From a virus, in the IMG/VR virus record IMGVR_UViG_3300020478_000075, positions 1 to 22,574 of that record: a stretch of DNA of 22,574 nucleotides. One strand, 5' to 3'. Below are positions 6,248-22,574 of the stretch, piece by piece. The notes below the pieces were generated by a model. That model did no database searches. It was given only the letters and a program-made list of their open reading frames with translations, and was not told the DNA's origin. Within the stretch, counting starts at the first letter, position 1. Each line of letters opens with the position of its first letter. A program made the position numbers and the translations under genes.

Positions 6248-8719
6248 ATGCCAAAACAACATTTCGGATTTTCAGACACAGAAGATAACCAAAAGAAAAG
6301 CAGTATTGGTCAATATGATACGGATCCAGGCCCATATATTGGTATAGTTGCTTTTCCGGCCGATCCTACAAGAATGGGAAAATTAGGTGTTAATATACCA
6401 GAGTTATCAAAAACAAATAATCCAACAAAAGATCAAATAATATGGTGTGATTATCTATCACCTTTTTATGGTTCAAAACCTAGAGATGCAGTATCAAAAA
6501 CTGATCCTTACAATTATAAAGAGTCACAACAATCATATGGTATGTGGTTTGTTCCACCTGACATAGGAACAGAAGTACTAGTAATGTTTATAAAAGGTAA
6601 TAAAAATCATGCATTTTGGCTTGGTTGTGTGCCACAACCGTTAATAAATCAAGAAATTCCTACTTCTGGATCAAGCGAGAATACTTCAGTAAGTGCTGAT
6701 TATGTAGGAGAAATGTCTACGCAATCAACTGATGATATATTTGGTACAAACTTATTGCCTGCAGGCGAAAAAAATTCTAGACTAAATCCAGAACCCCTAA
6801 CAGGTCGAGAAGAAAAATCATTTAAGAGACCAGTTAATGACTTGTTAGCAGATCAAATGTTAAATCAAGGAACAGTTGGAGACCCAGTTAGAGGACCAAT
6901 ATCATCATCTGTAAGAAGAGAAACACCAAGCAGAGTGTTTGGTATGAGCACACCAGGACCAATAAGAACAGATTCGCGACAAATGAATATTGGAATAGAA
7001 GGTGATAAAATAAGACCAGATAGAGGATTAGGACATTCATTTATAATGGATGATGGAGATTTTTTAGGAAAAAATAAACTTACAAGATTGAGAACAGCAT
7101 CAGGACATCAAATATTAATGCATGATACTGAAGGGTCAATTTATATTGCTAATGGTTCTGGAAATGCATGGATTGAAATGACTGCTGAAGGAAGAATTGA
7201 TCTTTATTCTGGTATTGGAGGAATCAATTTTAGGACAGAGGGAGATTTTAATTTACACGCAGACGGAAACTTTAATGTTCATGCAGGAAACTCACTTCGA
7301 ATGAGTGCTACAGGTGAAATGTTAAAATCTGCCGCGGCAATATATTCAATGGGTGATATGGGAGTATTCACGTCAGCACAAAACGGACCAATAATGGATT
7401 ATGGATCACAAGGTATTTCGTCATACACTAACGGACCACAAAGTCATGGTGCTGGAGGTAGAATAGATTTAGCAGGATCACAAGTACACTTTAACTCAGT
7501 TGGTGCAAGTGCTAGTTGGGGACCAAATTGGTTAACTCCAGAAAGGGCAGGAATGAAAGAATATGATGCCAATGATGTTGAGTTAGCAGACAAAGGTTTA
7601 AAACCATTAGAACCATTTACTAGAAAAACAAAAACAACAGTTCATAGATTTATACACCACGAACCTATGCCAAGATTTAAAGCCTTCCAAGCAGGGTCGG
7701 TACTTCCTATTGATCATGATGATAAAAAAATGTGGTCTAGGTTATCAAGCACGCCAGGAACTCCAGAATTTATAGCTCAACAAAATAGAATATCAGAAAA
7801 TAAAACTATTAGAGATGCACAATATCAAACAGATATGTTGTCATATGTAAAAACAAAAATGGGTAATTCAACTGACGTAGCTAAAGCAAGAAAACTAATT
7901 AATGACTTTGGAAAAAAATACGATGACACTTTTCAGATTGTTAGTCAAGTTGGAGGTGCATGGGACACAGCTAATGATAGTATTTCAAATGCAATAGGCA
8001 AGTTTCCTCTTTCAGACCAATTAGATGGATCAGGAAACATAAAAGAATATTCTAGTAAATTAACTTCTCAAGTAATTGAAAATTTAACAGGTAAAGGAAA
8101 GGATATATTTGCAAATAAAGTTTTTGTAAACAATAAAGGAGATGTATTTTCACTTGGAGATACTGTCTCAGGCATAACAGGAAACGTAGATATAGGTTCT
8201 CTATCTAATGATATAAATGTAATTAAAAAATTAAAAGGCGATTTAAGTGTTCAAAGTTTAACATCAGCAATGAATGTTTCTTCGGTATCTCAAATTTATA
8301 AAAACGTTGTAGGTGGAAATGTAACTGGACTTACAAATATACAAAGTATTAATCAAGTAAAAGGAGTAGCAACTAGAGCTCTAGCAAAAATAAGAGGCGC
8401 AGATTTAATGAATCCAAATGAAATGAAAAATTTAACTAATTTTGGTAAGTTTTCAACAGGCCTTAAAAAGTTTGCCGCAAATCCTGGTGCTTTCTTTAAA
8501 GGTTTTAAATTCAGTGATATTAGATTAAAAGAAGAAATACAATTAGTTGGCAAATCACCTGCAGGTATAAACATTTATTCGTTTAAATACAAACACACAG
8601 ATGGAACGTATCAAGGTGTTATGGCACAAGAAGTTCCGTGGGCAACAAAGATGACTGATACAGGATTTTATATGGTAGACTATAATAAAGTAGACGTAGA
8701 ATTTAGGAGATTAAATTAA
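6248..8719 (+). CDS. 5: Baseplate central spike, gp5-like, with C-terminal S74 chaperone domain, no lysozyme
   Basis: Central spike of the baseplate, 823 residues. Residues about 28-136 are the gp5/VgrG-type OB-fold (PYIGIVAFPAD, RMGKLGVNIPEL, FVPPDIGTEVLVMFIKG, HAFWLGCVPQP). Residues about 284-435 contain short Gly/Asp-rich strands (SIYIANGSGN, IDLYSGIGGINF, DFNLHADGNFNVHAGN) like the gp5 beta-helix. The lysozyme domain found in T4 gp5 is absent. A largely helical, Ser/Lys/Asp-rich segment of unknown function covers about 480-740. The last 68 residues are an intramolecular chaperone of the peptidase S74/endosialidase type: SDIRLKEEI (756-764), INIYSFKY, GVMAQEVPW, with Ser756 and Lys761 in the dyad spacing of self-cleaving members. 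Trimerisation and removal of the tail are therefore predicted. A weak AAGAGG site at 6231-6236 precedes the ATG. Confidence 0.88.
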   Translation: MPKQHFGFSDTEDNQKKSSIGQYDTDPGPYIGIVAFPADPTRMGKLGVNIPELSKTNNPTKDQIIWCDYLSPFYGSKPRDAVSKTDPYNYKESQQSYGMWFVPPDIGTEVLVMFIKGNKNHAFWLGCVPQPLINQEIPTSGSSENTSVSADYVGEMSTQSTDDIFGTNLLPAGEKNSRLNPEPLTGREEKSFKRPVNDLLADQMLNQGTVGDPVRGPISSSVRRETPSRVFGMSTPGPIRTDSRQMNIGIEGDKIRPDRGLGHSFIMDDGDFLGKNKLTRLRTASGHQILMHDTEGSIYIANGSGNAWIEMTAEGRIDLYSGIGGINFRTEGDFNLHADGNFNVHAGNSLRMSATGEMLKSAAAIYSMGDMGVFTSAQNGPIMDYGSQGISSYTNGPQSHGAGGRIDLAGSQVHFNSVGASASWGPNWLTPERAGMKEYDANDVELADKGLKPLEPFTRKTKTTVHRFIHHEPMPRFKAFQAGSVLPIDHDDKKMWSRLSSTPGTPEFIAQQNRISENKTIRDAQYQTDMLSYVKTKMGNSTDVAKARKLINDFGKKYDDTFQIVSQVGGAWDTANDSISNAIGKFPLSDQLDGSGNIKEYSSKLTSQVIENLTGKGKDIFANKVFVNNKGDVFSLGDTVSGITGNVDIGSLSNDINVIKKLKGDLSVQSLTSAMNVSSVSQIYKNVVGGNVTGLTNIQSINQVKGVATRALAKIRGADLMNPNEMKNLTNFGKFSTGLKKFAANPGAFFKGFKFSDIRLKEEIQLVGKSPAGINIYSFKYKHTDGTYQGVMAQEVPWATKMTDTGFYMVDYNKVDVEFRRLN

Positions 8720-12100: not shown

Positions 12101-12616
12101 GACCAAATAGTTTATCATCCAGTAAAATATAAAATTTTATTTGGTAAAAATTCAGACGAAGAATTACAAGCAACATTTAAAATAGTTAAAAATTCAAATA
12201 CAAATGTAACAGACGCAGTAGTTAAAACTAGAGTAATTAATGCAATTAACGATTTTTTTGCGTTAGACAACTGGGATTTTGGAGATGCATTTTATTTTAC
12301 AGAATTAGCCGCATTCGTACATAACAGACTAGCACCAGATATTATGACAGTTGTTATTGTACCAAATCAATCAGGACAAAGTTTTGGGTCTTTGTTCCAA
12401 ATAAATTCAGCGGCAGACGAAATTTTCATTAGTGGGGCCACCGTTAGTGATGTATCAATTATAACTGCATTAGGTGCCAACCAACTAGTAGCATCAGGAA
12501 CAGTTGTAACTTCAACATCAACCGCTACAACAAACACTACAACAGGTTCAGCAGTGTCAGGCTCTACTACATCAGGATCCGGTTCAAGTACCGGCAGTAG
12601 TGGGGCAGGATACTAA
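9137..12616 (+). CDS. 6: Baseplate wedge protein gp6, enlarged
   Basis: Main wedge protein that forms the inner ring of the baseplate by dimerisation. It is 1,159 residues against 660 in T4. The N-terminus is very close to T4 gp6: DFKSYDFETLRRTMVAYLRE (27-46), YPDDFNDFIESSEYVALIDL (48-67), SFRVDLNARENFL and RRNSVLRLARLINYNARRNL. The C-terminal gp6 core (about 940-1115) contains NLFRIWLQDGGTKP, HPVKYKILFGKN and NWDFGDAFYFTELAAFVH. The extra length lies in the middle (about 500-930), where several strand-rich stretches look inserted. Residues 813-824 (DDDDDGVVDNPD) fit the 12-residue calcium-loop pattern of EF-hand and dockerin proteins. The last 40 residues are almost only Ser, Thr, Gly and Ala, a flexible tail. 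No ribosome site precedes the start. The stop overlaps the next ATG (TAATG). Confidence 0.95.
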   Translation: MATTERQNRLLVAEDWRKIYQAFQQADFKSYDFETLRRTMVAYLRENYPDDFNDFIESSEYVALIDLIAYISQALSFRVDLNARENFLATAERRNSVLRLARLINYNARRNLPATGLLKVDSISTTEDVIDSTGTNIATQTIIWNDSANSNYREQFTAILNAANQTGQLFGKPRESGDIGGIKTEVYTLASNQSDLPIFTFTKSVGGTSRAFEIVPSSINNSESIYEADPIDGTGLTYSYRTDGSGDASNNTGFFFLFKQGSLQQSDFTVDTATTNYKRPVGSGGINDTDVWLYKLDQFGQVYEKWTRVPSVSGNNAIYNSLSKSERNIYNVVTKNNDAIDLVFGDGNFSNMPLGSFRAYYRVSDDAKYALQPADMSSIQIDVPYLSVNGSQQTLTINLGLKSSIYNSAATESNDSIKEKAPQVYYAQNRMITAEDYQVVPLSASQEIIKVKSVNRSASGISRAKEILDPTGAYSNLSIFADDGILYREENTNQFTFTFTNRNDILSTVNNSVEAKLKEAYSRHFYYLKYGTKDLSTLSATWNSTTTGTNTNTGYFTSGGALVIGDFATSNLKYAKVGSLIKFTSPDSREFLNGSLVTAGTDNAEDRSWAKVGAVDGDGANGGVGNLASGLGPVTLNNIIPQGANITAIFPNLATTFSDALKTDIIDRTEAYEDFGLRYDLDSQEWKVITTTNLSSSSTFSLSNAGSTTGSNTDASWWFKFTNDGNTYTVTYRSLDYIFESESQNKFHYDKQEKIYDYKTGKSVKDTVKILKTNSIVSTGNSIGYDINWQVVDTITEADGYQDNRKVKVGFYDDDDDGVVDNPDIFDIIVEPDTSESTKYVFYQKYTSYDNIERYKPYAATNFVVTQNESSITLPSSYSDGQLFYFYDTSENVIKKFSSSTNTLVTTTDYYARRGRSTINFQYKHNAGQETRIDPAVSNIVDVYMLERTYDNLFRIWLQDGGTKPTPQTSDQIRIAYSGKLNPLKSLSDQIVYHPVKYKILFGKNSDEELQATFKIVKNSNTNVTDAVVKTRVINAINDFFALDNWDFGDAFYFTELAAFVHNRLAPDIMTVVIVPNQSGQSFGSLFQINSAADEIFISGATVSDVSIITALGANQLVASGTVVTSTSTATTNTTTGSAVSGSTTSGSGSSTGSSGAGY

Positions 12617-15600
12617 TGGCAGATAATCCAACTAGTCCATTAACAAATCAGGAAGTTGTTAAACAAGGCAACAACGAATTACGAAGAACAGTCCAACACT
12701 TACCTGCATTTTATAGAACAGACGCAAACGAAAGATTTTTAGGTAGCACATTAGACCCATTAGTACAAAAAGGATCTTTAGAAAGGATTGATGGATATAT
12801 TGGTAGACAAGATGCATACACTAGAAAAATTACAGATAGGTATGTAGGAGCAACAAACAGAGATAGATTTGCTTATCAGTTAGAACCTACAGTAACTTAT
12901 ACAGATAAAGATACAACATCAGTTAATCCAGAAGACCAAGTTAAATTTACAGGAACGTATGATGATTATATTAGTCAAATAAAATATTTTGGTGGTGTAG
13001 TAGATAATCATGATAGATTAAACAAAGAAATTGTTTATTCTTGGAACCCTGCTATTGATTATGACAAGTTAATTAATTACAGAGAATACTATTGGGTGCC
13101 AGAAGGTCCTAATCCAATTGAAATAGATTCAGTTGGACCATCGGCTGTATCAGAATATAAAGTCGAAGTATGGCCAGATGATGGTAGTTCTGCTAAAGCA
13201 TGGAATTTACCTCATAGAGAAAACGAAAGAAATCCAATTTTAACGTTATATAGAGGTAATACTTATAAATTTAATGTAGACGCAAAAGGTCATCCGTTAT
13301 GGATAATGACCGAACCATATAAAGACAGTGTAGCCGCAGACGGATCAACGTCAACAATATATTCAACTGGAGTAACAAATAATGGTACCGATGGTGGCAC
13401 AGTAACATTTACAGTACCAACAGGTGCACCTGATACATTATATTATCAGTGTGGCAACCATGATTCTATGTATGGTACATTGTATATTAGAACTATATCA
13501 ACTACTGATAAATTAGATCCAGATAAAGATATAATTGGAGTTAAAAATTATTCATTAAGAACATTAGATTTATCTAATGGTATGAAAATTAAATTTAAAG
13601 ATAGTATTCTTGGAGGAGCATCAACATATAAAGGTAAACAATATTATGTTGAAGGAGTTGGTGATGCTATTACTTTAACCAATGTTGAAGATTTAATTAC
13701 GCCAGAAAGTTATGCAACAGAAACTCAAATTCCATATGATTCAGCTGTTTACGATTCAAGACCATATTCAACAGCATTTTATAGACCAGAAACATTAGAT
13801 TATATAACAATTAAAAGAGATTCAATAGATAAAAACCCGTGGTCTAGATACAATAGATGGTTTCATAGAGATGTAATTGAAAGAACCGGAGAAATAACCG
13901 GAGAAAAGAAAGTATTAGATGAAACAGATAGAGCAAAAAGACCAATTCTAGAATTTGATTCGGGACTTGAACTTTATAATCACGGAAATGTTTCAAAAGG
14001 ATCAGTAGCATTATTTGATACAGTAACAACAGATGCTTTTAGTAATGTAGTTAATTCAACAGGTTATATTATTGACGGTATTTCGTTAGCTGACGGAATG
14101 AAGGTAATATTTTCTGCAGACACTGATCCCACTGTAAAAAATAAAGTATATGTAGTAAATTTTGTAACAGCAGGAGATTCAACTTTAAGTATTGCATTAA
14201 CTGAAGACACTAATGGCTCTCCAGTTGATAGAGAATCAATATTTGTTGAACTTGGTACATCAAATCAAGGTAAAACTTTTTATTATAACAATACAACAAA
14301 AGTATGGACAGCGTCACAAGAAAAAACAAAAGTAAATCAACAACCTTTGTTTAAAATGTTTGATGATAGTCATATATCTTTTGATGATGCTACAACATAT
14401 CCAAACTCAACGTTTAAAGGAGCAAAAGTTTTTGAATTTGCAACATCAGATTCAGCAACTAAAGACACAGTATTAGGAATCAAAGTAAAATATAACACAA
14501 TTAATAATGTTGGAGATATTGTATTTGAATCTGATCACACTTCCGGAAGTTTTACATACAACTCAGGAACAACTATTGTAACAAAAAAATTAGCAGAAGG
14601 CCATTTACATTATACTACAAGTTCAACAACACATAACTCAAAAGGTGCATGGATTAAAAGATCAAGCGAAAGTAAACAAAGAGTTATAAGAACTTTTATT
14701 GCTGATGAAACAGAAAAACAATTATTTCAAGTTGATTTTTATAAAGAGTCAGCGGCATTAACTGATTTAGAAATTTCAGTTTCAGTTAATGGAATTAGAA
14801 AAAATTTAACAACTGACTATACTTTAGTTAATGGAACAGTTAACAAATATGTAAAATTTGTTAAAGAATTATCAGTTAATGATCAAGTAAAAATTACTGG
14901 ATATTCTAGTGCAAAAAAAGTTGCAAATAAAGGAATATACGAAGTACCAAAAAATTTAGAAACTAATGCTTTGAATAAAACTATAGGTACATATACCTTT
15001 GGTCAAATATTAAACCATGTACAAGATATGTTTGAAAGGAACATTGAAGTAACTGGAGTAATACCAGGAGTTTCAAATTTAAGAGATAAGCCAGATGCAA
15101 GGTTAAAAGGTGGGACAATTTTGCAACACCAAAGTTCTTTGTTACCCGCAGTTTTTAGTTTAATTGATCAAAATGCAAATGTAATAACTGCTTTAGATTA
15201 TTGTAATAAAAAATACGAAGAATGGTATAATTCATTTTTAACACACGCCGTTGGAACTGCATATGAAGGTGTAGCATCAGATAGAGTTGATGAAATATTA
15301 GAATCCATGAACCAAGGTAAAAATAGCTCATTTCCATTTTACTATGAAGACATGGCAGGATTTGGTGAAAATGTTTCAATAAGAACTTATACCGTTCCTG
15401 ATGCTTCTCAAACAGAATACGCAATTGATTCACAATTTAGTATAACAACTTCAAGTAATAGAGCGGTGTATGTATATCTAAATGATGTATTGTTAAATTT
15501 AGGTACAGATTATACTTTTAGCACCGACGACGATACTGTTAATATAACAGCCACACTTGCAGAAGGTGATACAATTAAGATTAGAGATTATCCTGATACA

Positions 15601-18600
15601 ACTGGTAGTTATATTCCACCAACACCAACTAAACTTGGAATGTATCCAAAATTTACACCAGAAAAGTATACAGATACAACTTATATTACTGATACTGAAG
15701 TTATTAGAAAACATGACGGATCCATTATAAAAACATATGGAGACGAAAGAGATGATTTAATAATAGAATTAGAAAGAAGAATTTATAATAATATAAAAGC
15801 GTCTTATGATTCTACATTATTAGATATTAATGAATCTACGCCATCAGCATTTACATCAACTGAATTTACATTACAAAATATTAATGACGTTATGGCTGGA
15901 GATTTTTATAAATGGGCTGGTAGAAATAATGTGCAATATCTTACAAATACAACTTTTTCTGAAGGATCACCTTTTACTTACAACTATGCAAGAAGTACTG
16001 ATAGAGTAAACAATCAAAGTTTGCCAGGACATTGGAGAGGAATATACAAATATTTTTATGATACAGATTGTCCACATACTAGACCATGGGAGATATTAGG
16101 CCATTCTGAAAAACCTAGCACGTGGGACGCAACTTATGGTGCGGCACCTTATACGTCAGGTAACACAGTATTATGGGACGCAATAGATTCTCAAACTGGA
16201 AGATATGGAAAATCAGGAATTAAAAGTTATTTGCCTGTTAATGCATCAGGCGAGTTATTAGATCCTATTGCGGCAGGACTTATAGATAATTTTGATATAC
16301 CAGGAAGAAGAGCAGGATGGAAGTTTGGTGATCATGCACCAGCAGAAACGTCTTGGAGAAGGTCATCAGCATATCCATTTACTGTAATGAAAACTTTAGC
16401 ATTAACAAAACCTGCTAAATTTTTCTCAATATATTTTGATACATCAAGGCACACATTAAACTCTGTAGGAAATTTAGTAAGTTCTGAAACAGGAATTCGA
16501 ACACAATTAGCAACAGCAAAATATCATTTAGAAACGTTAACAGATAATACAACTGGCACAACAACAAGGTATACTACTGCAGGATATCAAAATTTTGTTG
16601 TAAATTTCTTAGTTTCAAGAAATTTAGATCCAACAACTTTTTATTATGATAAAATGAAAGCCTTAGATGTACAATTATCTTATAAACTTGGTGGATTTAC
16701 GGATAAAGATAATTTAAAAGTTTTAACAGATTCGGTTTCACCAGGATCAGCATCCGGTTCTAAATTTATTCCAGATGAAAACTATAAAATATTATTTAGA
16801 ACATCAAACCCAGTTGAATCGTTTGAATATTCAGGTGTGTTAATTGAAAAAAATACTGATACTGGTCTTGATGGATCAACATTATTAGGTGGATATAAAG
16901 TTTTAGGTTATAATACTACAAAACCATATTTTAATTTTTATTATCCTGTCGAATCAGCAACACATAACAAAGTTAAAATATCCGGAGTAGAAGTCAAACA
17001 ATATCCAAATTATTCAGAAGATTTGCAAACTGTTCCTTATGGATTTGTATTTGACACGATACAAGAAGTAGTAAACTTTTTATTTGGATATGGACACTAT
17101 TTAGAAAACAGAGGATTTAAATTTAACAAATATTCAAATGAAATTAAAGAAACATTAAATTGGTCAAATGCAGTTAGAGAGTTTTTATTTTGGACAACTC
17201 AAAATTGGTCGCCCGGAAGTGCTATAACTGTATCACCGGGGGCTAATGGATTTGAATTAGATACAAATAATTCAGTTGTAGGAAAAATTAAAAACCTTGC
17301 AGGGGATTATTCAACATTAGATGCAGGTGGAAGAAAAGTAGATATAAGAGATATTTCTATTAAAAGAATTGGAAAAACATTTGATTTAGGAATAAAAGCA
17401 AACGATGTAGGATTGTTTAATATTGAATTAAACACAGTTCAAAAAGAGCATATGCTTTTATTTGATAACTCTACAGTGTTTGCAGATATAATTTATAATC
17501 CACAAACTGGCTTTAGACAACAAAGATTAAAATTAGTAGGATGGAAAACTGGTGGATGGAATGGTGATTATTATGCTCCGGGATTTATATTTGATTCAGC
17601 ACAGGTTAGTTATTGGATAGCAAACACAGATTATAAAATTGGAGATTCAATTGAATACCAAGGTAAATTTTATGTTGCAAAAATAAACCATACTTCAACA
17701 ACAGAATTTGTAACGTCCAATTGGATATTAAAATTAGAAAAACCAGCACCACAATTAATTCCAAACTTTGATTATAAAATTTCACAGTTTAATGATTTTT
17801 ATAGTTTAGAATCAAATAATTTTGATGAATCGCAACAAGAACTTGCACAAAAATTAACTGGATACCAGTCAAGAGACTATTTAGAAAATTTATTTGTTAA
17901 TGATATATCACAATATAAATTTTATCAAGGATATATTAGAGAAAAAGGAACAAAAAATGCTATTGATAGAATATTAAAAGCAAAATACGAAGACCAAGAC
18001 ATTTCTTTAGACTTGTATCCTGAATGGATGATTCGTACAGGAAGATTTGGTAATGTTGATGCGATTGAAAATATACAAATAAGGTTAAAAGATAATGAAA
18101 TTGTAAACAATCCACAAAGTATTGAATTACTTGATTCTTCAAATAGTACTAAATCTTATATAAGAAGTTTAGGAATTCCAAAACAAGACTTTTATCATAC
18201 ACCAGTTGAATATACAGCTAGTACAACTTTTTCACAATATGATTATACGAAAACAGGTGTTGATAGAGATACAGTACAAGTTTATAAAACTGCAGGGTAT
18301 CCACAATTAAAACAAGTTCAACATACGGCATTTAACATTTCAGATCTTCTTAATCTTGATATTGACGGTGTAGAAGCCAATGAGTTAGTTTGGGTTGCAA
18401 ATAAATCAAATAACGATTGGGACGTTCTTAGAATAACAAATGCAGGAGTAAAAATTGCAAATTTAAGATCAATAAACGAATCAACGCAAATGGAAATTAC
18501 TTTTACAGCAGGTCACGGATTGACTGACGCTACATCTACTACGTTAGCTGATTATATTGGAATAGCAGAGGCAGAAGACGAAGCATTAAACGGAGTTTAC

Positions 18601-21600
18601 GAAGTTAAAAATGTAATTGACTATAAAAGAATAGTAGTAGATTATACAGGTAATTTGGCTTTACCTACACTTGATGATGGATCAACAGCAGATAGTTTTG
18701 GAAATGTTTTAAAATTTGTTTCAGTAAGATTAGATTCAATGGACAATGTAAACGATCGTCTAGGCTATGATGTATATAAAGACAGAATTGAGGCATTAGA
18801 AACAGGTGATAAAGTATTTGCAGATGCAGATAGTGACGGATTATGGAGAGTATATGAAAAACAAAATCCATATACACATAAACAATTATTATCACCAGAT
18901 AGTACAACTGCTGATCAGGATTTTGGATGGCAAATTGTTGCAAGAAACGACGGAAGAGCTGTGGTAGTTGCCGCACCAACAGATGGACAAGGTACAATAA
19001 ACTTTTTATTCAGATCAACAGCAACAGCAGGATCGACTTTCTTATCACAAGCATCTTTAACAACCACTGCAGGTGACGATAACACAGGTAAGTTAGGTTA
19101 TTCGTTGTCAATGAGTACAGACGAAAACTTTGTTGTAGCAGGTGCACCTTATACCAATTCTTATGGCTCTGATGGAAGCACAAGATTTTCAGATGCTGGA
19201 TTAATTAAAATATTTGTGTGGCAAGCGACTACGTTTCAATACGGAACATTATCTACAAAACTACCACCAGAAGATCAAGCAAGTCAAAATTTTGGATGGG
19301 CACATAAAATTTGTGAACCGGGAGCAAATTCAGTTAGATCAACACCAACAAAATATTTGTTTGTATCATCTCCAGGGTATAATACAGATACAGGTAGAGT
19401 GTATATGTATGAATGGAGTGTTGGTGACGATGGATCAACATATGATACATGGACACAATGTTTAACAATTGATTCTCAATCACCAGGATCAAACCAACGT
19501 TTTGGACATAGAATTGCCGCAAGTGATACAGCAGATATTCTTGCAATAAGTTCTAAAGCACCTGGAAATGCAGGTAAAGTAGAGATATTTGTAAGAACAT
19601 CATCAAGAAACGATGATAGTGTAAATCATTCATTTAGTTTAGTGCAAACACTTACTGGTGTAACAAGCGATGGATCAACACTTAATACTCAATTTGGTGA
19701 ATCAATAGCAATGAGTAAAGACGGTACAACTTTAATTGTTGGCTGTCCGGGTTATGATGATAGTTCAGCCGCAGACGCAGGAGCAATTTATTATTATAAA
19801 TGGGACGCTGACAACGATTCTACATTAACTTATACTTTACAACAAACGTTAAGTTCACCAGATAAACAAGCATTTGCAAAATTTGGATCATCTGTTGATC
19901 TAAACAACGACGGAACAAGATTAGTTATTGGTGCAGAAAAATTTGCTAATAGTAGAGAAATGAAATTTGATTCAGGTGAAACAACTTTTGATTTACAAGA
20001 CACTGTTGTTGTTGATGAGAATATAGGATCAGGTGGTGCATACACGGCTACAAGGTATAACACAAAATTTGTAATAGATGATAGATTAACTACAACAAGT
20101 GTATCTGCTAATGATGATTTTGGAAGAGGTGTATGTGTAATTGACCAATCAGTGTTTGTAGGAGCACCAGATGATGATGGAAACATTTCTTCAGATGGAA
20201 GTACTAAACTTTCAAACGACGGAACCGTTGCAGTTTTTGACCTTACAACCAATGATGAATATGCATGGAAACAACTTACATATGAAAAACCATTAATTGA
20301 TATTGAAAAGTTAGGAAAAACTTTTGATTTTGATAGCAAGTCTAAAAGAATTAAAGAACATTATAATTTATATGACCCAATTAAAGGAAGAATATTAGGT
20401 GTAGCTGATCGAGAAATTAATTATAAAACACATTGGGATCCAGCACAATATAATAATGGCACAAATCCAAATACTAAAATGTCATGGGGTGAAGAACATA
20501 TTGGAGAAATTTGGTGGGATCTTTCAAAAGTAAAATGGATTTGGTATGAACAAGATACACAAGAATACAAAACAAATAATTGGGGTAAAACTTTTCCAGG
20601 ATCTTCAATTGATATTTGTGAATGGACAGAATCAACATATCTACCGTCACAATGGAGTACTTTAGGTGCTTCAACTGACGGCCCATCTTTAGGAATTACA
20701 GGAGTACCAGTTCATCCTGATGATTCACAGTATACTCAAAGAAGAAAATACAATTCTGACACAGGAGTATTCACAAACTATTATTACTTCTGGGTTAAAA
20801 ATAAATCAAATGTACCAACAACCAGTGTTGTAAAAAGATTTAATACAACGTCATATATTTCAAATATAATATCAAATCCAAGATCGTTTGGATTTAGTTA
20901 TTATGCAGTAACTGATATTAACAAAATAATTTTATGGAATACAAAAAATTTAATTAATGTTGATATTATTTTAAACATTGATACTAAAAATAATACATAT
21001 GATTCTAACGCACATTCAGTATGGAAGTTAATACGAGAAGGTGATGAAGATTATAGACCAGGAACACAAATAGAAACACGTTGGTGGGATTCTTTAATAG
21101 GTAAAAACGCATCTGGAGATGTTGTACCAGATCCTAATCTTGCAGTAAATGAAAAATATGGAAATAATATTAGACCAAGACAAAGTTGGTATACTAATAG
21201 ATATGATGCCTTAAAAGAAATAATTGATTATGCAAATAGTGTATTAAAGAAACAGCAATTAGTAGGAACATTTAGTTTAACTAATTTAAACTCAAAAGAT
21301 CCTGAACCAACTGCTGGAAGTTTAGAATGGGACGCAACAGTTGACACATATGAAGAATTAACATACCTTGATACTAGAGATATATCTGGTCTAACAAATT
21401 ATCTTGTAAAATCAGACAGTAATGCAAATAATTTGTGGGCAATATACCAATGGGACGGATCAGTTTGGTCAAGAACAAAAGTTCAAACATATGATTCTAG
21501 CAGGTATTGGTCATATACGGATTGGTATAAAACAGGTACAGACGAAAATACAAAAATTGACAAACAAGTTACATATGAATATGAATTAGATCAATTAGAT

Positions 21601-22574
21601 TTAGGAATTGACAAATATGTTAAAGTAACTTCAGCAGACACTGGTGGTTGGAAAATATTTAAAAACACAGCCTCTGGTTGGGAAAATTGTGGAACACAAA
21701 ACGGAACTATTAGAATATCAACAAAACTTTATGATTATTCTCAAGATGCAACAGGGTTTGCAGGGCCAGATAATTTTGATGATAACTTCTATGACCAAGA
21801 ACCATCATTAGAAACAAGACATATATTAAAAGCATTAAAAGAAGATTTATTCATAAACCAATTAGCTGTAGAATACAATACTTTATTCTTTACAGGTTTA
21901 AGAAAAGTATTAGAACAACAAACTTATGTTGATTGGATGTTTAAAACTTCGTTTTTAAATGCTAGAAATTCGGTTAGACAGTTAGATCAGAGAAAAACTT
22001 ATACAACAAAAACAGATACTTGGGTTGAAAGTTATATTAACGAAGTTAAACCTTTCCATAGTAAATTAAGAGAATATAAAATAGGTTACCAAGGTACTGA
22101 CACAGAAGATGGAATATTTACAGACTTTGATAATCCACCGTTCTATGATTCAGAAACTGCAAAAATTAGAGGATTAAATGTATCTAAAGATTCTAGTAAA
22201 CTAACTGAATATCCATGGCAGATGTGGTATGACTATCATAAAAAATATGTTTCATCAATTACATTAGTAGATGGAGGTTCTGGATATACAGAAACACCAA
22301 TAGTAACAATTATAGGCGGAACGGTAGAAAGTACAGGACCATTCCAAGTATTAGGTACAAGTAGTTCTGGTAGTACAAGTGGAACGTATGGATATTATTA
22401 TCCATTGTTTACAGATCAAGAACAAGCAAAAATATATGACACACAAAATAATAGTGGATCGGGTGTCGCAACATCATACACATTTACTGAATACTCTGGT
22501 AGAACTTTTTATATGCCTGCAAGTACAGTAAACACAGGACAAACTCTTAAATCGGGTGAATTTAAAATGTACAC
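12616..22574 (+). CDS. 7: Giant baseplate wedge protein, gp7-like, C-terminus outside window
   Basis: An open frame of 3,319 codons from ATG at 12616 to the window edge; I read every codon and found no stop. AGGA at 12607-12610 and the TAATG overlap with gp6 support the start. T4 gp7, which starts wedge assembly and bridges gp6, gp8, gp10 and gp53, has 1,032 residues. The identification rests on position after gp6 and on stretches known from gp7-like proteins of marine T4-like phages: LPAFYR near the N-terminus, HDGS, YGDERDDLIIELERRIYNNI (from about 1041), LPGHWRGIYKYFYDTD (1136-1151), LGKTFDFD (near 2570), VKPFHSKLREYKIGY. Added modules are a cupredoxin-like domain (about 208-295), a CBM5/12-like motif (1664-1710), a seven-repeat propeller (about 2090-2560) and a Gly-rich module at the visible end (from about 3214). 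It might include functions that are separate genes in T4. The true length is unknown. Confidence 0.8.
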   Translation, partial: MADNPTSPLTNQEVVKQGNNELRRTVQHLPAFYRTDANERFLGSTLDPLVQKGSLERIDGYIGRQDAYTRKITDRYVGATNRDRFAYQLEPTVTYTDKDTTSVNPEDQVKFTGTYDDYISQIKYFGGVVDNHDRLNKEIVYSWNPAIDYDKLINYREYYWVPEGPNPIEIDSVGPSAVSEYKVEVWPDDGSSAKAWNLPHRENERNPILTLYRGNTYKFNVDAKGHPLWIMTEPYKDSVAADGSTSTIYSTGVTNNGTDGGTVTFTVPTGAPDTLYYQCGNHDSMYGTLYIRTISTTDKLDPDKDIIGVKNYSLRTLDLSNGMKIKFKDSILGGASTYKGKQYYVEGVGDAITLTNVEDLITPESYATETQIPYDSAVYDSRPYSTAFYRPETLDYITIKRDSIDKNPWSRYNRWFHRDVIERTGEITGEKKVLDETDRAKRPILEFDSGLELYNHGNVSKGSVALFDTVTTDAFSNVVNSTGYIIDGISLADGMKVIFSADTDPTVKNKVYVVNFVTAGDSTLSIALTEDTNGSPVDRESIFVELGTSNQGKTFYYNNTTKVWTASQEKTKVNQQPLFKMFDDSHISFDDATTYPNSTFKGAKVFEFATSDSATKDTVLGIKVKYNTINNVGDIVFESDHTSGSFTYNSGTTIVTKKLAEGHLHYTTSSTTHNSKGAWIKRSSESKQRVIRTFIADETEKQLFQVDFYKESAALTDLEISVSVNGIRKNLTTDYTLVNGTVNKYVKFVKELSVNDQVKITGYSSAKKVANKGIYEVPKNLETNALNKTIGTYTFGQILNHVQDMFERNIEVTGVIPGVSNLRDKPDARLKGGTILQHQSSLLPAVFSLIDQNANVITALDYCNKKYEEWYNSFLTHAVGTAYEGVASDRVDEILESMNQGKNSSFPFYYEDMAGFGENVSIRTYTVPDASQTEYAIDSQFSITTSSNRAVYVYLNDVLLNLGTDYTFSTDDDTVNITATLAEGDTIKIRDYPDTTGSYIPPTPTKLGMYPKFTPEKYTDTTYITDTEVIRKHDGSIIKTYGDERDDLIIELERRIYNNIKASYDSTLLDINESTPSAFTSTEFTLQNINDVMAGDFYKWAGRNNVQYLTNTTFSEGSPFTYNYARSTDRVNNQSLPGHWRGIYKYFYDTDCPHTRPWEILGHSEKPSTWDATYGAAPYTSGNTVLWDAIDSQTGRYGKSGIKSYLPVNASGELLDPIAAGLIDNFDIPGRRAGWKFGDHAPAETSWRRSSAYPFTVMKTLALTKPAKFFSIYFDTSRHTLNSVGNLVSSETGIRTQLATAKYHLETLTDNTTGTTTRYTTAGYQNFVVNFLVSRNLDPTTFYYDKMKALDVQLSYKLGGFTDKDNLKVLTDSVSPGSASGSKFIPDENYKILFRTSNPVESFEYSGVLIEKNTDTGLDGSTLLGGYKVLGYNTTKPYFNFYYPVESATHNKVKISGVEVKQYPNYSEDLQTVPYGFVFDTIQEVVNFLFGYGHYLENRGFKFNKYSNEIKETLNWSNAVREFLFWTTQNWSPGSAITVSPGANGFELDTNNSVVGKIKNLAGDYSTLDAGGRKVDIRDISIKRIGKTFDLGIKANDVGLFNIELNTVQKEHMLLFDNSTVFADIIYNPQTGFRQQRLKLVGWKTGGWNGDYYAPGFIFDSAQVSYWIANTDYKIGDSIEYQGKFYVAKINHTSTTEFVTSNWILKLEKPAPQLIPNFDYKISQFNDFYSLESNNFDESQQELAQKLTGYQSRDYLENLFVNDISQYKFYQGYIREKGTKNAIDRILKAKYEDQDISLDLYPEWMIRTGRFGNVDAIENIQIRLKDNEIVNNPQSIELLDSSNSTKSYIRSLGIPKQDFYHTPVEYTASTTFSQYDYTKTGVDRDTVQVYKTAGYPQLKQVQHTAFNISDLLNLDIDGVEANELVWVANKSNNDWDVLRITNAGVKIANLRSINESTQMEITFTAGHGLTDATSTTLADYIGIAEAEDEALNGVYEVKNVIDYKRIVVDYTGNLALPTLDDGSTADSFGNVLKFVSVRLDSMDNVNDRLGYDVYKDRIEALETGDKVFADADSDGLWRVYEKQNPYTHKQLLSPDSTTADQDFGWQIVARNDGRAVVVAAPTDGQGTINFLFRSTATAGSTFLSQASLTTTAGDDNTGKLGYSLSMSTDENFVVAGAPYTNSYGSDGSTRFSDAGLIKIFVWQATTFQYGTLSTKLPPEDQASQNFGWAHKICEPGANSVRSTPTKYLFVSSPGYNTDTGRVYMYEWSVGDDGSTYDTWTQCLTIDSQSPGSNQRFGHRIAASDTADILAISSKAPGNAGKVEIFVRTSSRNDDSVNHSFSLVQTLTGVTSDGSTLNTQFGESIAMSKDGTTLIVGCPGYDDSSAADAGAIYYYKWDADNDSTLTYTLQQTLSSPDKQAFAKFGSSVDLNNDGTRLVIGAEKFANSREMKFDSGETTFDLQDTVVVDENIGSGGAYTATRYNTKFVIDDRLTTTSVSANDDFGRGVCVIDQSVFVGAPDDDGNISSDGSTKLSNDGTVAVFDLTTNDEYAWKQLTYEKPLIDIEKLGKTFDFDSKSKRIKEHYNLYDPIKGRILGVADREINYKTHWDPAQYNNGTNPNTKMSWGEEHIGEIWWDLSKVKWIWYEQDTQEYKTNNWGKTFPGSSIDICEWTESTYLPSQWSTLGASTDGPSLGITGVPVHPDDSQYTQRRKYNSDTGVFTNYYYFWVKNKSNVPTTSVVKRFNTTSYISNIISNPRSFGFSYYAVTDINKIILWNTKNLINVDIILNIDTKNNTYDSNAHSVWKLIREGDEDYRPGTQIETRWWDSLIGKNASGDVVPDPNLAVNEKYGNNIRPRQSWYTNRYDALKEIIDYANSVLKKQQLVGTFSLTNLNSKDPEPTAGSLEWDATVDTYEELTYLDTRDISGLTNYLVKSDSNANNLWAIYQWDGSVWSRTKVQTYDSSRYWSYTDWYKTGTDENTKIDKQVTYEYELDQLDLGIDKYVKVTSADTGGWKIFKNTASGWENCGTQNGTIRISTKLYDYSQDATGFAGPDNFDDNFYDQEPSLETRHILKALKEDLFINQLAVEYNTLFFTGLRKVLEQQTYVDWMFKTSFLNARNSVRQLDQRKTYTTKTDTWVESYINEVKPFHSKLREYKIGYQGTDTEDGIFTDFDNPPFYDSETAKIRGLNVSKDSSKLTEYPWQMWYDYHKKYVSSITLVDGGSGYTETPIVTIIGGTVESTGPFQVLGTSSSGSTSGTYGYYYPLFTDQEQAKIYDTQNNSGSGVATSYTFTEYSGRTFYMPASTVNTGQTLKSGEFKMY
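13237..13500 (+). other. Cupredoxin-like module within the gp7-like protein
   Basis: Residues 208-295 of the gp7-like protein read LYRGNTYKFNVDAKGHPLWI, then a Gly/Thr-rich loop, TVTFTVPTGAPDTLYYQCGN and HDSMYGTLYI. This is the strand order of plastocyanin-like cupredoxins. His226, Cys279, His282 and Met285 occupy the places of the type I copper ligands (Cys-x2-His-x2-Met at the C-terminal loop). Similar CxxHxxM stretches are frequent in marine phage structural proteins. Whether copper is bound is unknown. Confidence 0.6.
17605..17745 (+). other. CBM5/12-like carbohydrate-binding motif within the gp7-like protein
   Basis: Residues 1664-1710 have the spacing of the small chitin-binding modules: a Trp at 1667, DYKIGDSIEYQGKFYVAK, and a second Trp at 1703 (NWILKLEKP). 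In the family, the aromatic residues Trp-Tyr-Trp line the sugar-binding surface. The match is to a short, common pattern (W, YxxGDxVxYxGxxY, W), so it may be only a structural small beta-domain in this protein. Confidence 0.45.
18913..20280 (+). repeat. Seven FG-GAP-like protein repeats forming a probable beta-propeller in the gp7-like protein
   Basis: Seven degenerate repeats of 57-79 residues follow the pattern FGxxI....DG..LVVGAP....G.VYVY.W. The FG (or LG) dipeptide starts at 18922, 19093, 19291, 19501, 19693, 19882 and 20119. The best repeats read FGESIAMSKDGTTLIVGCPG and FGSSVDLNNDGTRLVIGAEK. This is the integrin-alpha type of seven-bladed propeller. The strand before the first FG (GLWRVYEKQNPYTHKQL) resembles the last strand of repeat seven (VAVFDLTTNDEYAWKQL), as expected when the ring is closed by N- and C-terminal strands of one blade. 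Repeats diverge at DNA level. Confidence 0.75.

Follow-up and report, generated by a model that had tools for sequence, protein, structure and literature searches.

An integrin-type FG-GAP propeller predicted in a hairpin turn of a giant gp7-position baseplate wedge protein of uncultured aquatic phages

The window analyzed here (22,574 nucleotides of viral DNA; positions 1-22,574 of the IMG/VR record IMGVR_UViG_3300020478_000075) encodes a giant protein at the position of the baseplate wedge protein gp7, in which one seven-bladed FG-GAP_2 propeller, likely of the integrin alpha-head type, appears to occupy the turn of a beta-hairpin. The flank sequences suggest a single uptake after which the module was kept, so that the propeller probably belongs permanently to the working attachment machine of the phage and is not an optional decoration. 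The explanation that we consider best, at a probability of roughly 45%, is that a fixed propeller, inserted in the hairpin and gained once, serves as a permanent docking platform rather than as a variable receptor binder.

The host ORF (12616..22572, plus strand) contains 3,319 codons and is open at the end of the window, while relatives with both ends present encode proteins of 4,200-4,580 aa. It follows genes for gp5-like, gp25-like, and gp6-like proteins and matches PHROG 10938 (E 0). Its cultured relatives found by tblastn are jumbo phages (24-29% identity), of which RaK2 and PA5oct have the same gene order after gp6, and the PA5oct homolog is annotated as detected by mass spectrometry. 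By homologous flanks and gene order, the protein belongs with the gp7-position wedge proteins of RaK2/PA5oct-type jumbo phages (PHROG 10938). In T4, gp7 (1,032 aa) also comes after gp6, but hhalign comparison of three ORF regions with T4 gp7 (a single T4 sequence as template) gave probabilities of 0.08-0.31% and detected no homology; the label “gp7-position” therefore refers to gene order only. The initial annotation had described the flanks of the propeller as ordinary gp7-like sequence; the strings that it quoted are present at 18604 and 20287, but they are not recognizable as T4 gp7 sequence. NCBIfam gave no match, and neither did a nucleotide search against phages. Upstream, the C-terminal segment of the gp5-like protein (6248-8719) resembles Peptidase_S74 (endosialidase chaperone), which seems unusual for this position. 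The tail genes downstream of the wedge gene encode, in relatives, products of 241, ~500, and ~470 aa. Among the metagenomic contigs, one relative is assigned to a Pelagibacter bin and one to a Betaproteobacteria bin, where binning errors are possible.

The propeller module spans residues ~2086-2543 of the ORF (nt 18871-20244, plus strand, as are all features of the window given below), with FG/LG motifs in seven places (residues 2103, 2160, 2226, 2296, 2360, 2423, and 2502). Pfam FG-GAP_2 (PF14312; cut-off 23 bits) matches the whole ORF at 45.3 bits (E 9.7e-12) and the propeller alone at 63.9 bits (E 1.6e-17). A blade profile made from the blades in the window and iterated on relatives counts exactly seven: blade 1 (FGWQIVARNDGRAVVVAAP, 18922..19062), blade 2 (LGYSLSMSTDENFVVAGAP, 19093..19260), blade 3 (FGWAHKICEPGA...YLFVSSPG, 19291..19470), blade 4 (FGHRIAASDTADILAISSKAP, 19501..19656), blade 5 (FGESIAMSKDGTTLIVGCPG, 19693..19854; the top Pfam repeat), blade 6 (FGSSVDLNNDGTRLVIGAE, 19882..20088), and strands one to three of blade 7 (FGRGVCVIDQSVFVGAP ... 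GTVAVFDL, 20119..20244). Blade 6 bears a long arm of 32 residues between its strands B and C (19936..20031), with a conserved FDxGxTTFD motif. The motif positions, the Pfam match, and the profile count together confirm the seven FG/LG repeats that had been read from the sequence at the outset. The matching N-terminal strand noted then is real as well: YTHKQLLSPD (residues 2086-2095) resembles YTLQQTLSSPD, the fourth-strand motif of blade 5, and the structural model has a strand there.

AlphaFold2 (AF2), run on residues 1797-2650 with 93 sequences, predicts a propeller with a mean pLDDT of 83.2 overall and about 90 across the propeller itself, and its strand list yields seven blades. Blade 7 has three strands in this list, the fourth being YTHKQLL (18871..18891) from the N-terminus of the module. 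Judged by the strand count, the sequence resemblance, and the full-length integrin matches, the ring is probably completed by the module's own N-terminal strand, in which case the module could fold independently and leave the surrounding scaffold undisturbed. Integrin alpha chains make up all of the best 50 Foldseek matches listed against PDB (E 3e-15 to 4e-12), the best match to an integrin head having a TM-score of 0.66 by target length at E 3e-15. Similarly, hmmsearch of the module profile against PDB sequences matched integrin alpha chains only, with integrin alpha-4 as the best (E 4e-14). Seven four-stranded blades, counted from the profile and the model strands, and the fold similarity place the module among integrin-alpha-type propellers. 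Besides these, fold matches among viral models include giant-virus FG-GAP proteins, an Atu_ph07 “hemagglutinin”, and an S-TIM5 virion protein. None of the 93 homologs has, in any blade, the integrin-type calcium motif (DxD/NxD/NGxxD), for which inspection had been proposed. The initial reading of a seven-bladed FG-GAP propeller inside a baseplate wedge protein is thus supported, with closure of the ring the inferred part.

A first hint of an insertion, of about 490 residues, comes from PHROG 10938, whose best stretch aligns 1,205 window residues against 711 profile positions. In the cultured phages RaK2, 121Q, XaC1, PA5oct, Atu_ph07, and Vibrio 2.275.O, both flanks are present and no blade is found; the comparison with gp7-like proteins of other phages that had been suggested initially thus shows the module to be cleanly absent from some homologs. 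In an environmental relative without the module (L231), the pre-insert and post-insert profiles abut directly, and the hairpin is intact, reading QWTVYKRHLNKWEPIRT as against LWRVYEKQNPYT...[propeller]...YAWKQLTYE in the window. The two hairpin strands (RVYEK, residues 2078-2082, 18847..18861; WKQLTY, residues 2551-2556, 20266..20283) are conserved in relatives without the module, where the turn is a few residues long. AF2 of L231 (pLDDT 64 overall, about 85 at the hairpin) places one strand at 234-239 and the other at 242-248, joined by a turn of two residues. Taking these alignments and models together, the propeller appears to sit exactly in the hairpin turn, with roughly 465 residues in place of a few. 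As the hairpin itself is not recognizable in the RaK2/121Q/XaC1 group, the evidence for the exact site comes from PA5oct and from the environmental relatives. Two propeller-free proteins, those of L195 and of Atu_ph07 (L257), have more than 1,200 unrelated residues between the same flanks, so this region accepts other cargo too.

To survey the distribution of the module, we collected 279 distinct inter-flank segments, mostly by flank-only scans from which the best 80 matches each were taken, which makes the collection a sample rather than a census. At least two blades were found in 235 segments, exactly seven in 173, and none in 44; some of the lower counts come from propellers that long insertions interrupt. 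When the same segments were shuffled with composition kept, 275 of the 279 contained no blade and four contained one. A propeller common to all homologs is rejected by the 44 bladeless segments. In an unrooted tree of 123 rows built from flank sequence only by a quick search, a single branch (SH-aLRT 100) separates all 87 propeller rows from the others, so one change explains the data, and the module is present in every member found of this propeller clade. The simplest history suggested by these sequences is that the module was gained once, in the ancestor of a large clade of uncultured aquatic phages, and then became fixed. The tree, being unrooted, does not settle gain versus loss, and a propeller ancestral to the family and lost in RaK2, PA5oct, and related lineages (a history compatible with any function) would be just as cheap, but it is rather improbable given that the module-free rows are deep and diverse, many of them closing the hairpin at this site with a short turn, and that T4 gp7 (1,032 aa, with no sequence homology) has little room for such a module. 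Third-position GC is 0.153 in the module, a value inside the ORF's own range that gives no sign of recent import; recent transfer is ruled against on this ground, the higher overall GC reflecting amino-acid make-up. Searches of cultured phages by tblastn gave no match to the window's propeller at E 1e-3, and with the propeller of a divergent relative gave Phosso alone (E 0.1).

Within the window's clade (40 rows), the mean pairwise identity is 66% for the module, 58% for the scaffold before it, and 67% for the scaffold after it. Loops show the same degree of conservation as strands and hardly vary in length, no hypervariable loops are seen, and the blade 6 arm has the same length in all 40 rows. 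A module found in every clade member and, in the window's clade, as conserved as its scaffold fits poorly with the “decoration” proposed in the initial annotation. The clearest conserved cluster beyond the FG/GAP skeleton is the B-C arm of blade 6, in which the D of TTFD is invariant in the alignment. From propeller topology, the B-C loops are expected on the face opposite the tether. As both ends of the propeller would be tethered on one side, the opposite face, with the TTFD arm, would point away from the wedge, where it may form a permanent dock for a further component of the virion such as a fiber or pin protein; alternatively, its ligand may be a surface feature that is almost constant among the hosts. 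The evidence that we count for docking consists of the fold, the insertion point, the single change on the tree, the constancy, the TTFD arm, and the mass spectrometry detection in PA5oct. Against it, conservation among close relatives could equally stem from a shared receptor, and among the 53 divergent rows the module is more variable than the scaffold that follows (31% vs. 54% identity).

A somewhat less probable reading, and the strongest competitor, is that the propeller sits on the outside of the baseplate and contacts a receptor or glycan there, perhaps a surface feature common to many hosts. FG-GAP propellers of integrins and adhesins bind ligands, and other phages have stand-alone FG-GAP proteins, both of which agree with such a role. 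Further, CBM5/12-like (chitin-binding) modules lie within the propeller in 23 relatives of other lineages and in none of the shuffled segments, the one in L168 scoring above the Pfam CBM_5_12 cut-off; these insertions favor some surface exposure in at least some lineages and glycan contact there, which also speaks against docking. In L168, L171, L338, L371, and others, the inter-blade insertions reach several hundred residues and carry up to three such modules. The absence of hypervariable loops and the nearly fixed loop lengths in the window's clade, and a module constant in all clade members found, argue against receptor contact. Receptor-binding proteins typically have variable tips. The window has a CBM5/12-like (chitin-binding type 3) module of its own outside the propeller (17608..17751), which is below the Pfam cut-off (E 6e-4) but matches the same module in solved chitin deacetylases; it was the sole relevant match when the N-flank and N-terminal profiles were searched against PDB. 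It is missing at the corresponding place in RaK2, 121Q, XaC1, and Vibrio 2.275.O, and being absent or displaced in cultured relatives, appears to be mobile within these proteins.

It is unlikely that the propeller is mere structural bulk, that is, an inert compact domain with no specific ligand that makes the wedge broader at its periphery or screens a neighbor. A hairpin-turn insertion need not upset the fold, and the unrelated insertions in L195 and Atu_ph07 would suit a spacer, but conservation in the blade 6 arm goes further than the structural FG and GAP residues, and for an inert domain one would expect more losses or replacements than are seen in the tree. More speculative still is an elaboration of the docking proposal, to which we assign a low probability: the wedge propeller would be the phage counterpart of an integrin head, with the TTFD arm docking a partner whose receptor binding is relayed via the hairpin into the wedge to trigger sheath contraction.

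The wedge protein appears to illustrate how a complete foreign domain can enter a multi-subunit machine via a hairpin turn without disturbance and then become a constant part of it throughout a large clade of uncultured aquatic phages, for which the module serves as a marker. The hairpin also offers a precise cut site for a functional test, and the module is a lead to an attachment part absent from all cultured relatives examined.

Compared with known systems, the gp7-position proteins of RaK2, 121Q, PA5oct, and other jumbo phages (PHROG 10938) share gene order and homologous flanks with the window but lack the propeller, having 218-329 residues between the flanks instead of 722, while Atu_ph07 has 1,543 residues of other sequence there. 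The stand-alone FG-GAP proteins of phages (Atu_ph07 gp320, cyanophage S-TIM5, and ORFs 107-108 of Sinorhizobium phage Phosso) also consist of FG-GAP_2 repeats, but are separate proteins, whereas the window's module is part of a wedge scaffold. Among them, gp320 (L426, 7019-8200; annotated as hemagglutinin) is encoded among tail genes beside those for the tail sheath, in a phage whose gp7-position protein has no propeller. Phosso encodes two adjoining giant proteins with dozens of FG-GAP repeats (L256, 13339-24417 and 24491-30819; annotated as hypothetical), and a 419-codon frame of S-TIM5 (JQ245707, 159571-160488) contains six FG-GAP_2 matches and is apparently the virion structural protein of the fold search. 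In the open-access literature searched, which leaves most subscription journals and preprints outside, we found no description of an FG-GAP propeller in a phage baseplate. Like Pfam FG-GAP_2 (PF14312) repeats, for which it scores above the cut-off, the module has a short A-B turn and no calcium loop, but differs from FG-GAP_2 in general as a single ring set in a giant wedge protein. The closest counterpart is the integrin alpha-chain propeller (PDB 9ind, 3v4p), which likewise has seven FG-GAP blades and is the top match by both structure and profile. In integrins, too, one strand of the propeller comes from the N-terminal end, as predicted for the phage module. The phage propeller differs in belonging to a phage structural protein, in lacking the calcium motifs, in being nested in a hairpin where the integrin propeller starts its chain, and in the extra TTFD arm of blade 6. 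We therefore picture it, tentatively, as a module that may act as a protein-docking platform like the integrin alpha-chain propeller, minus the calcium sites.
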